From positions 3,582,232-3,646,231 of the forward strand of contig NZ_CP049241.1 of the NCBI RefSeq assembly GCF_011046245.1: DNA of 64,000 nucleotides, written 5' to 3'. The DNA is from Allorhizobium pseudoryzae (lineage in GTDB: Bacteria > Pseudomonadota > Alphaproteobacteria > Rhizobiales > Rhizobiaceae). Of the stretch, positions 51,090-55,404 are shown one piece after another. Numbering within the stretch: position 1 is the first letter of the stretch; each line of letters begins with the position of its first letter. A program made the position numbers and the translations under genes. The notes under the pieces were generated by a model. That model was not told where the DNA came from and did no database searches. It saw only the letters and a list, made by a program, of their open reading frames with translations.

Positions 51090-52643
51090 TCAGCCCTGGT
51101 TGATCGGAAGCGCCATGAAGCGGCTGCCGCTCTGCGATTCGACCTGGAAGAGCGCCCGGGTACGACCATCCTTGCGCGCCGCTTCGAGAGCCTTCGTCAC
51201 ATCGCGGGCAGACGAAACCTGCTGGTTGTTCACCGAGGTGATCTTTTCACCCTCGCGCAGGCCCTTGGCTGCCGCTTCCGAACCCGGATCGACATCGGTC
51301 ACCGAAACACCCTTGCCATCTTCGGCAGGTGCCACGGTAATGCCGAGATCGGCCAGAGCCTTCTCGCTCGACGGCTGGCTGTCCGGCTCGCTCTGCGTCT
51401 TTTCGGCCTTCGTCGCTTCGTCGCTGGCGAGGTTGCCCAGCATGACCGGCAGGGACTGAGCCTTGCCATCGCGCCAGATCGACACCTCGACCTTCTGGTT
51501 CGGACCGATCGCGGCAACCTTCTTGGCGAGATCGCGGGCATCCTTCACCGGTTCGCCGTTGACGGCGGTGATCACGTCGCCCTGCTTGATGCCGGCCTTG
51601 GCACCCGGGGAGTTATCCTGCGGGGCAACCACAAGCGCACCCTTGGCTTCGGCGAGACCGAGCGATTCGGCGATATCCTGCGTCACCGGCTGGATCTGCA
51701 CGCCAAGCCAGCCGCGCTCCACCTTGCCATCCTTCATCAGGTCGGCGATCACATCCTTGGCGGTCGAAGCCGGGATGGCGAAGGCGATGCCCACATTGCC
51801 GCCGGACGGCGAGAAGATCGCGGTGTTGATGCCCACCACTTCGCCTTCCAGGTTAAAGGTCGGGCCACCGGAATTGCCACGGTTGACGGCGGCATCCACC
51901 TGGATGAAATCGTCATAGGGGCCAGAGCCGATGTCGCGGCCACGCGCAGATACGATACCGGCCGTCACGGTGCCCCCGAGGCCGAAGGGATTGCCGACGG
52001 CCACCACCCAGTCACCGACGCGGGTCTTGGCGTCATCGGCAAACTTCACATAGGTGAACTTGCGCTTGGCATCGACCTTCAGGAGGGCGAGATCGGTGCG
52101 GCTGTCCTTGCCGACGAGCTTGGCGTCGAGTTCGGTGCCGTCATTCATCACCACGGTATAGGCCGAGCCGTCGGAAACGACGTGGTTGTTGGTGACGACA
52201 TAACCGTCTTCGGAGATGAAGAAGCCGGAGCCCTGGGCGACAGGGCGCAGATAATGCGGACGGTTCGGATTGCGCTGGGCATGATCCTGGCCACGCGGGC
52301 CGCCCGGCATCTGGTTGCCGAATTCGCGGAAGAAGCGCTTCAGCGGATGGTCGTCCGGCAGGTCGTCAAAGCCGCGACCACCGAAATTAAAGGAAAATCC
52401 GTTGCCGCTGTCGTCGGAGACGGGGGTTGCGTCGGACTTGACGCGGACGGAGACGACGGCGGGAGACACCGCGCTGACAACATCCGCAAAACTCGGAACC
52501 TGCGGCGCGGCAACGGTCACCGGCTCGGCGAAAGACTGGTAGACCTGGGCCGGAATGCCGGTCGAGAGCATGACAGCCGCGAGGCCTGCGACGGTCGTTC
52601 CCTTCAGGACGGTTTTAAGAGAGGGGCGTCCGATCTTGCTCAT
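51090..52643 (-). CDS. degP: Do/DegP-family periplasmic serine protease
   Basis: A 517-residue HtrA/DegP-type protease-chaperone for misfolded envelope proteins. The signal sequence is within about residues 10-40 (TVAGLAAVMLSTGIPAQ). The catalytic triad is H154 (TNNHVV), D184 (RTDLALL) and S258 (RGNSGGP). Two PDZ domains follow (about residues 310-400 and 420-505). A Gly/Asp-rich Q-linker-like segment occurs before the protease domain. The ATG at 52643 is chosen because AAGAAGG precedes it; ATGs at 52664 and further upstream lack support. It sits after the ccm genes, as in other rhizobia. Confidence 0.94.
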   Translation of the reverse strand: MSKIGRPSLKTVLKGTTVAGLAAVMLSTGIPAQVYQSFAEPVTVAAPQVPSFADVVSAVSPAVVSVRVKSDATPVSDDSGNGFSFNFGGRGFDDLPDDHPLKRFFREFGNQMPGGPRGQDHAQRNPNRPHYLRPVAQGSGFFISEDGYVVTNNHVVSDGSAYTVVMNDGTELDAKLVGKDSRTDLALLKVDAKRKFTYVKFADDAKTRVGDWVVAVGNPFGLGGTVTAGIVSARGRDIGSGPYDDFIQVDAAVNRGNSGGPTFNLEGEVVGINTAIFSPSGGNVGIAFAIPASTAKDVIADLMKDGKVERGWLGVQIQPVTQDIAESLGLAEAKGALVVAPQDNSPGAKAGIKQGDVITAVNGEPVKDARDLAKKVAAIGPNQKVEVSIWRDGKAQSLPVMLGNLASDEATKAEKTQSEPDSQPSSEKALADLGITVAPAEDGKGVSVTDVDPGSEAAAKGLREGEKITSVNNQQVSSARDVTKALEAARKDGRTRALFQVESQSGSRFMALPINQG

Positions 52644-52801
52644 GGAGTGATACCTTCTTTTCATCTTCACATTCAGACTGGAGGACCGACATTTCTTCCG
52701 ATCTGCCGGCGGCGGTGGATGACGCAAGATATAGGCAGCGCCACCTTAACTGCACGTGTCTGGGTGGTGAAAAGTTGGTAATGTTGGGGTGCCGGTCCCG
52801 G

Positions 52802-53419
52802 TCACTGCTTGAGAATCTGATCCAGCCTTGCCTGTTCTTCCGGCGTCAGCAGCTTTTCCGGCGCCCGTGTCGCGCGGCGGCGTGTCAGCGCAAAGACTGC
52901 GCCCGCACCGATGACCAGAAGCAAGGCTGGTGCCGTCCACAGCGCCACCGTCTTGGCGCTGAGGCGCGGTTTCAGCAGCACAAACTCGCCGTAGCGGGAC
53001 ACGACATAATCGATCACCTGCTGGTCGCTGTCGCCGCCGACGATCCGCTCGCGCACCAGCAGGCGCAGGTCCTTGGCGAGTTCCGCATTGGAATCATCGA
53101 TCGACTGGTTCTGGCACACCATGCAGCGCAGCTGCGCGGAAAGACCGCGCGCCCGTTCCTCCAGCACCGGGTCCTTCAGCACCTCGTCCGGATTGACCGC
53201 CAATGCCGGCAGCGGGGCGAGGAGAAGGCAAAGGGTAAGGAGGATCTTTGCAAGGTATGCGCCACGCCCCTCATCCGGCTGCCGCCACCTTCTCCCAGCC
53301 TGCGGGGAGAAGGGCCACGCCGCGGGCTTTTCCGTCCCTTGCAACAGTGCACGGGGCACGTCCCCTCTCCCCGCACGCGGGGAGAGGGTTAGGGTGAGGG
53401 GCTCGCACTTCAATGTCAT
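52802..53419 (-). CDS. ccmH: CcmH/CycL cytochrome c maturation thiol protein with repeat-derived N-terminal extension
   Basis: CcmH reduces apocytochrome c cysteines for heme ligation. The conserved part begins after [17 protein letters not shown] (signal core residues 59-70) and includes LRCMVCQ (C99, C102) and a C-terminal TM near residues 155-175. The start at 53419 forms an ATGA overlap with the ccmF stop, the coupling used throughout this operon. Between that ATG and the signal peptide lies a palindromic repeat translated in frame (residues about 6-52). An internal GTG after GAGAGGGGAC is an alternative start. Total 205 residues versus about 150 for the normal protein. Confidence 0.88.
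53266..53402. repeat. RIME-like palindromic repeat inserted in ccmH
   Basis: A 137-base element bounded by GCCCCTCATCC and GGGTGAGGGGC. It contains two inner palindromes: CCTTCTCCC/GGGAGAAGG (53288-53313) and CCCTCTCCCCGC/GCGGGGAGAGGG (53363-53388, loop AC). This is the build of the rhizobial intergenic mosaic (RIME-type) elements, normally found between genes. Confidence 0.82.
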
Positions 53420-55404
53420 TCCGCCGGCTCCATCTGCGCCTTCACCGGCTTTACCCGCCTGGTCGGCGCGCCGACCCGCAGGCGGCGATCCGAGAGCGAG
53501 ACGAAACCGCCAGCCATCATCACCAGCGCGCCGCCCCAGATGCAGAGAATCCACGGCTTCCACCAGATGCGCACGACGATCCCGCCATCGGCCATCGGGT
53601 CACCCAGCGAGACATAGAGCTGGCTGAAGCCGAAGGTGAGGATGCCGGCTTCCGTCGTCGGCATGCGGCGCGCGGTATAGATCCGCTTCGATGACCAGAC
53701 ATCGGCGACCACAGCACCGGCACGGCTCACCGTGAAATGCCCCCGCTCCTCGGTAAAGTTCGGACCGACGGCCTCGCGCAGCCCATCAAAGACGAGACTG
53801 TAGCCGCCCGCCTCCACCGTCTGGCCCTGTTTCATCTCGACGACGGTTTCGGTTTCGAAGGTCGTTACGGCAACGATGCCGAGCACCGTCACGCCGAGCC
53901 CGAAATGCGCCAACGCCGTGCCGAAGGCCGAGCGCGGCAGACCCTTGAAGCGGGCCAAGGCAATCGAAAAGGCAAGTTTGCCAAAACCGGCCCGGTACCA
54001 GAGGTCAGCGAGTGCGCCGAGCATCAGGAAGACACCGAGTGCCAGCCCCAGTCCCGCCATCACCGGCCCACCGTGCTCGAGATAAAAGAGCACGAAACCC
54101 GCGACGAGCGACAGGCCCGCGACCAGGTAAAGCCGCTGCAGCGCGCCGAGCAGATCACCCCGTTTCCAGGCGAGCAGCGGGCCGAAGGGCACCGCGATCA
54201 GGAGCGGGATCATCAACAGGCCGAAGGAGAGGTTGAAGAAGGGTGCGCCGACGGAAATCTTCTCGCCGGTCAGCGTCTCGAGCACCAGCGGATAGAGCGT
54301 GCCGATCAGCACCGTGGCGGTCGAGACCGTCAGGATCAGGTTGTTCAGCACCAGCGCGCCCTCGCGCGAGATCGGCGCAAACAGCCCGCCGCTCTTCAGG
54401 TCCGGCGCCCGCCAGGCGTAGAGCGCAAAGGCGCCGCCGACGAAAAAGCTGAGGATCGCCAGGATGAAAGTCCCGCGCGTCGGATCGGTCGCAAAGGCAT
54501 GTACGGAGGTCAAGACACCGGAGCGCACCAGGAAGGTGCCAAGCAGTGACAGCGAAAAGGTGAGGATGGCGAGCAGCACGGTCCACACCTTCAGCGCCTC
54601 GCGCTTTTCCATGACAAGCGCCGAATGCAGAAGTGCGGTTCCGGCGAGCCAGGGCATGAAGGAGGCATTTTCCACCGGGTCCCAGAACCACCAACCGCCC
54701 CAGCCAAGCTCGTAATAGGCCCAGTAGGAGCCCATGGCGATGCCGGCGGTCAGGAAGGTCCAGGCGGCGAGCGTCCAGGGCCGCACCCAGCGCGCCCAGG
54801 CCGCATCGATGCGTCCCTCGATGAGCGCGGCAATGGCAAAAGAGAAACAGACGGAAAAGCCGACATAACCGAGATAGAGCAGCGGCGGGTGGATCGCGAG
54901 GCCCGGGTCCTGCAGCACGGGATTGAGATCCTGGCCCTCCGCCGGCGCCGGATTGATGCGCACGAAGGGATTGGAGGTCAGCAGGATGAACAGCAGGAAG
55001 GCGGTGCCGATCCAGGCCTGGACGGACAAGACCGTCGCCCGCAGGCTGTCCGGCAGGTTACGGCCGAATACCGCCACCATGGCGCTGAACAGCACGAGGA
55101 TCAGCAGCCAGAGCAGCATGGAGCCCTCGTGATTGCCCCAGACGCCCGACAACTTGTAGACCATCGGCATCAGCGAATGGGAATTCTCCCAGACATTGGC
55201 GACTGAGAAGTCGGACACGGCATAGGCCCAGGTCAGCGCACCGAAGGACAGGGCAACCAGGCCGAACAGCGTCACGGAGCCGACCGGCGCCAGCGCCATC
55301 AGTGCGGCATCGTTGCGCCGGGCGCCGATCAGCGGCAGCACGGAGAGAAGAAGCGAGGTCGCAAGCGACAGGACGAGCGCATAATGACCGATCTCGATGA
55401 TCAT
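53416..55404 (-). CDS. ccmF: CcmF/CycK heme lyase subunit
   Basis: A 662-residue polytopic inner-membrane protein with about 15 TM segments that, with CcmH, attaches heme to apocytochrome c. The tryptophan-rich [16 protein letters not shown] motif for heme handling is present, as are [13 protein letters not shown] and [11 protein letters not shown] segments. Length matches the family. It overlaps ccmE (4 bases) and ccmH (4 bases). No fusion or frameshift. Confidence 0.96.

Follow-up and report, generated by a model that had tools for sequence, protein, structure and literature searches.

RIME, the Rhizobium-specific intergenic mosaic elements reportedly described by Osteras et al. in 1995, are said to be palindromic. 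In REP/REPIN systems, two inverted hairpins form a unit of 100 to 150 nt that is mobilized by RAYT transposases. The closest precedent for the case described here, likened by mode of action and not by sequence, is provided by the Rickettsia palindromic elements (RPEs), which passages in PMC2229807 and PMC10969869 describe as dispersed repeats of ~105 to 150 bp that lie in frame in conserved protein genes and are apparently tolerated. Intragenic REPs are also known, with different REPs found at about the same recB site in two Xanthomonas species according to a section of PMC3733652, and an excerpt of PMC2229807 describes a Yersinia YPAL/RU-2 fusion, YPO1552, whose predicted signal peptide derives in part from a small mobile repeat. 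RIME is cited or briefly mentioned in parts of PMC2245857 and PMC2873474. Our search of the literature on RIME-type elements, either in frame or within ccmH/cycL, brought up nothing on repeats in ccmH among the papers listed (the CycL term was swamped by unrelated "cycl..." words), and a search for CcmH with an N-terminal extension in Rhizobi... found nothing. In-frame palindromic inserts in single genes are thus already known; what is new here is that different repeat types appear to have entered one position of one conserved gene on many occasions, with close kin whose site is empty and with other junctions of the same operons as matched controls.

The window that we analyzed is a 64,000-nt stretch of the Allorhizobium pseudoryzae genome (G000), and the features that matter here are as follows.

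52802..53419, minus strand: ccmH (cycL), open frame of 205 aa including the repeat-derived extension; Pfam CcmH (PF03918) at residues 62-202, 2.5e-54
52802..53197, minus strand: mature CcmH, from VNPDEV, with the CxxC motif as RCMVC
53198..53254, minus strand: hydrophobic signal-peptide core of 19 residues, predicted from sequence
53266..53402, minus strand: RIME-like palindromic repeat, type F1, 137 nt, in frame within ccmH and dispersed in the genome
53288..53313, minus strand: hairpin 2 (arms 53288-53299 and 53302-53313)
53357..53359, minus strand: in-frame GTG within the repeat, after the purine-rich GGGGAGAGGGGAC; possible internal start
53363..53388, minus strand: hairpin 1, first in the mRNA (arms 53363-53374 and 53377-53388)
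53403..53419, minus strand: short stub from the coupled ATG to the repeat
53416..55404, minus strand: ccmF, whose TGA overlaps the ccmH ATG (ATGA, 53419-53416)
53420..53431, minus strand: GGAGCCGGCGGA, directly 5' of the ccmH ATG, within the ccmF 3' end
53431-53428, minus strand: Shine-Dalgarno-like GGAG, inside the ccmF 3' end

The placement of the repeat at 53266-53402, in frame between the coupled ccmH ATG and the signal-peptide core, was confirmed. The ATG (53419-53417) overlaps the ccmF stop, and the frame stays open from it through the repeat into the CcmH domain, identified by its Pfam match and CxxC motif. Signal peptidase probably cleaves the leader after ALA. A GGAG no more than 14 nt from the start was present in 35 of the 39 extended loci and in 120 of 191 nonextended ones; since it also encodes ccmF residues, its conservation is no proof of a ribosome site.

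When the 137-base element was compared with the rest of the genome, as the original prediction had proposed, it proved to be a dispersed repeat with 77 matches in G000, some of which represent both strands or halves of one place. The 13 best matches, the ccmH copy among them, span approximately positions 10 to 147 of the 157-nt query. Two short hairpins with 12-bp arms sit within an imperfect 41-nt inverted repeat, and the RNA fold of the surrounding 170 nt reaches -98.2 kcal/mol (z = -5.2 against 200 shuffles). No Rfam family reached its gathering threshold over 52000-55000, and no target-site duplication was evident by eye in the flanks of the inserts.

These properties place the element close to several of the described systems. 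It shares with the RPEs the form of a palindromic dispersed repeat of ~100 to 150 bp (137 nt, inverted arms, 77 matches in G000) and insertion in frame in conserved protein genes (ccmH and a sirohaem synthase gene). However, RPEs are reported from many unrelated genes, whereas at ccmH several dissimilar repeat types reuse one position before a presumably cleaved signal peptide. The element resembles RIME in host group and in its palindromic, mosaic makeup, although it is "RIME-like" by description only, and RIME is described as intergenic, whereas the ccmH copy is intragenic. It is like a REPIN in having two inverted hairpins as one unit; in contrast to the REP/RAYT system, which has a RAYT (Y1_Tnp) transposase, G000 gave 0 matches to Y1_Tnp (PF01797) in a search that was positive in 5 of 14 control genomes, and we rejected such a transposase as the mobilizer in G000. 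In YPO1552, the repeat makes up part of a newly formed signal peptide, whereas the ccmH repeat stands ahead of one that this conserved gene already had.

We surveyed ccmH loci in two sets. The named-genome set comprised 80 loci and is biased, since its query contained the repeat; in the family-wide draw, a repeat-free query matched 390 of 394 genomes, and the best-scoring 149 loci were read (30 directly plus 120 fetched regions, with one duplicate). Loci were measured by D, the distance separating the ccmF stop from the CxxC codons. Its distribution is bimodal, the two groups being separated by a gap from 192 to 239 nt, and the threshold for an extension (D = 230) was chosen after the distribution was seen. 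By this measure, 39 of 218 distinct loci carry a long extension at the ccmF/ccmH junction and 179 do not. The family draw alone gave 23 extended loci among the 149, 22 of them in frame.

The original prediction had held that the same extension in all close relatives would undercut an insertion. Within the window's genus, however, five of ten sampled species (L112, L113, L114, L115, and L123) have no insert, and the other five carry four types: F1 in L111, F2 in L116 and L143, F3 in L121, and F4 in L132. Comparison with related genomes revealed the empty-site arrangement in L113 and an insert common to the window and its next of kin, L031, so that in-frame insertion, the core of the original prediction, is supported. 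In L113, the nearest sampled insert-free relative, D is 134 nt versus 290 nt in the window. The original prediction called such an in-frame repeat unusual, but it is no isolated case: other repeats occupy the same site in relatives, and G000 has a second in-frame copy in its sirohaem synthase gene. Recurrence is the larger result, and the ccmH insert of the window is one case of it.

Sorted by eye, the inserts fall into types F1 to F8.

F1: window, L031, L127, L131, L139; in the opposite orientation, L033, L035, L045, L126
F2: L034, L037, L041, L143, L082, L116, L130, L147, L148
F3: L044, L121, L117, L118, L032, L046, L205, L164
F4: L038, L161, L162, L040, L132
F5: L140, L146, L165, L207
F6 (F5-like): L043, L054
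F7: L101
F8: L256

F1 was the one type found in both orientations. Seven types are multicopy in at least one carrier genome. The matches in their own genomes numbered 14 to 51 for F2 (six of six genomes), 22 to 57 for F4 (four of four), 5 to 87 for F3 (five of six), 28 to 49 for F5 (three of four), 73 for F7 (one of one), and 94 for F8 (one of one). With the F3 query, the genome of L164 yielded no match at 1e-12, and the two matches that the F5 query found in the genome of L043 are both strands of one place. The inserts of L054 and L207 are partial, the L207 extension holding only half an element. Judged by sequence similarity, the inserts represent seven repeat types in at least five dissimilar groups (F1, F2/F3/F8, F4, F5/F6, and F7). 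Some inserts also differ in length: where L117 and L118 share an F3 insert, that of L118 is longer by 48 nt, a multiple of three, and the CcmH proteins P0002, P0008, and P0010 have shortened repeats with the frame kept, as if one arm had been deleted.

The variety of types could also have arisen from a single ancestral insertion that was later overwritten by recombination with other copies, such that the types reflect conversion and not separate landings. Cross-comparison of representatives revealed an end module common to F2, F3, and F8 and a link between F1 and F5 that runs through L139 and L043, and different types do occur in neighboring species, all of which would fit conversion. However, blastn at 1e-3 between representatives of F1, F4, F5, F7, and the F2/F3/F8 group gave no cross-matches, and the inserts lie at differing distances from the ATG. 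A FastTree phylogeny built from the ccmF C terminus and mature CcmH, with the extension excluded, required a minimum of 18 changes in insert presence and 29 in insert type; support is poor at 85 of the 216 inner branches, and these counts hold for that tree. L113, which lacks an insert, branches as sister to the pair formed by the window and L031 (support, 92). Close relatives can carry different types (e.g., F2 in L148 versus F4 in L162), and most of the clades include empty sites. On balance, a single overwritten insertion is very improbable.

We next turn to whether the repeats are read as protein. All but one of the 39 extended loci (38/39) are stop-free and in phase with the coupled start at the ccmF stop. 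Across 12 other F1 copies in G000, which include the copy within the sirohaem synthase gene, 25 of 72 frames are stop-free, about one per strand, so that a random insert would be expected to be stop-free and keep phase with a chance of ~25/72 x 1/3 = 0.12. These copies range from 119 to 156 nt in length. The original prediction reasoned that flanking bases must have been adjusted because the element length is not a multiple of three; with such length variation and so many open frames, no special adjustment is needed.

If the repeat were truly intergenic, ccmH would start inside or after it, and the upstream open frame would result incidentally from the stop-free frame that the repeat itself carries. 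Several observations are compatible with this arrangement. An in-frame ATG, GTG, or TTG occurs inside the extension in 34 of 39 loci, making a shorter product possible, and the window's GTG at 53359 comes after GGGGAGAGGGGAC. Among the extended loci, only L121 (G316) has its ccmH out of phase with the coupled ATG; it has in-frame GTG and ATG codons within its repeat, and its start must be inside the repeat if the gene works. Database starts also vary: that of P0005 (Rhizobium sp. SL86 CcmH, 150 aa) falls downstream of the repeat, at a position where L031 has CTG and the window has CTT, that of P0001 lies inside the repeat, and that of P0119 is at the first ATG. A passage in PMC3733652 cautions that, for many REPs that seem to lie within the N-terminal part of a gene, the annotated start may be wrong. 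On the other hand, phase and openness from the coupled start in 38 of 39 loci greatly exceed the expectation per insert, and five loci (L207, L041, L143, L035, and L046) have no ATG, GTG, or TTG between codon 4 and the core, so the repeat must be read through in these. None of the three codons occurs within 14 codons before the core in 25 of 39 loci. In the window, none lies between the repeat end and the hydrophobic core, and translation beginning after the repeat, which the original prediction named as a threat to the insertion model, fits poorly. Taken together, the frame and start codon data favor initiation at the coupled start as far as sequence can indicate, and an intergenic repeat is unlikely. 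The annotation of the ccmH start is inconsistent among insert carriers, and recurrent inserts would explain such inconsistency in rhizobia.

The extension differs from the mature protein in its rate of change. In 15 overlapping pairs of loci sharing an insert, extension dN/dS was 0.34 to 2.18 (14 of the 15 pairs; one has a dS of 0) versus 0.03 to 0.23 in mature CcmH, whereas dS was 0 to 0.32 in the extension and 0.28 to 1.33 in mature CcmH. Comparisons of the ccmF end were set aside, as several were out of register and dN/dS exceeded 1.1 in 7 of the 15 pairs. The amino acids of the extension are thus weakly constrained. "Exapted," the word used in the original prediction, is too strong. The repeat DNA has changed less than neighboring synonymous sites and less than simple neutrality predicts for the time since the species diverged, which could reflect late insertion, conversion, or selection on the hairpins.

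The last of these possibilities would apply if the hairpins were retained as functional RNA at the ccmH start, tuning coupling, pausing, or mRNA stability, with different repeats recruited to this role. The very stable folds, the lower dS of the extension, and the recurrence at a single site are in line with such a role, as is the finding that paired positions differ less (82/1,186; 0.069 per site) than unpaired ones (82/443; 0.185) in 12 overlapping pairs. However, compensatory changes are rare (4, versus 32 one-sided changes with pairing retained and 40 broken pairs), too few to serve as a sign of selection on the RNA, and 179 of 218 loci do without a long extension. Moreover, these repeats are palindromic wherever they are located, so the structure arrives with the insert. 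We therefore regard retention as functional RNA as quite improbable. A related proposal likewise seems rather improbable, namely, that the ccmF/ccmH junction is a convergently used regulatory landing site to which unrelated hairpin repeats are recruited again and again because the leader that they form, structured and translated, controls the ratio of CcmF to CcmH or the time at which CcmH is exported. Different selfish DNA would then have been domesticated at this one position many times over, each time independently.

The other overlaps of the same operons served as a junction control in 61 operons, 22 of which were picked because they are extended. The ccmI/ccmE spacing is 134 nt in 59 of the 61 (exceptions, 138 and 146) and the ccmE/ccmF spacing is 74 nt in 58 (exceptions, 77, 109, and 291), whereas the ccmF/ccmH spacing ranges from 53 to 344 nt. 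CcmE and CcmF are not known to have a cleaved leader, and the near absence of inserts from the ccmI/ccmE and ccmE/ccmF overlaps fits a lower tolerance in these two proteins. The 291-nt ccmE/ccmF junction belongs to L283 (G195); its 217-nt surplus is not a multiple of three, and ccmH of the same genome has an insert.

We consider it likely that the stretch from the coupled ccmH start to the signal-peptide core is a recurrent permissive landing site in Rhizobiaceae and relatives, where inserts are translated and then lost with the signal peptide. This reading builds on repeat identity, recurrence at a single site, in-frame openness, empty-site relatives, near-invariant sister junctions, and relaxed amino acid constraint, all of which were seen directly; translation from the ATG, export, cleavage, and near-neutrality of the extension are its presumed consequences. 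A repeat would land between the coupled ATG and the hydrophobic core, a place that is inside coding sequence, given the overlap with ccmF and the start of ccmH at the ATGA. It would persist only if its length and phase left one frame free of stops, as is often possible with these repeats. Ribosomes would start at the coupled ATG and pass through the repeat, giving a preprotein with an n-region of some 40 to 100 residues, and signal peptidase would cut off the whole leader, so that mature CcmH would be unchanged at little cost to the host. The junction would then amount to an experiment, replicated in nature, on the places at which proteins admit selfish repeats, and it suggests a rule that is testable genome wide, namely, that a leader destined for cleavage is a safe site.

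The second in-frame copy of F1 in G000 (G000:C1:1744111-1744246; L010, L323) lies within the NAD_binding_7 domain of sirohaem synthase. When 19 open frames across other G000 copies, taken from the top 30 F1 loci, were compared with Pfam, 3 scored above the cutoff; the domain spans the repeat in sirohaem synthase only, and the two BPD_transp_1 matches lie well downstream of the repeat. Repeat-like DNA was present in the same sirohaem synthase loop in 3 of 30 loci read, namely, the G000 copy, L324, and L325. The search match in the L324 genome (G051) contains an in-frame TGA, by which its sirohaem synthase gene may be damaged.
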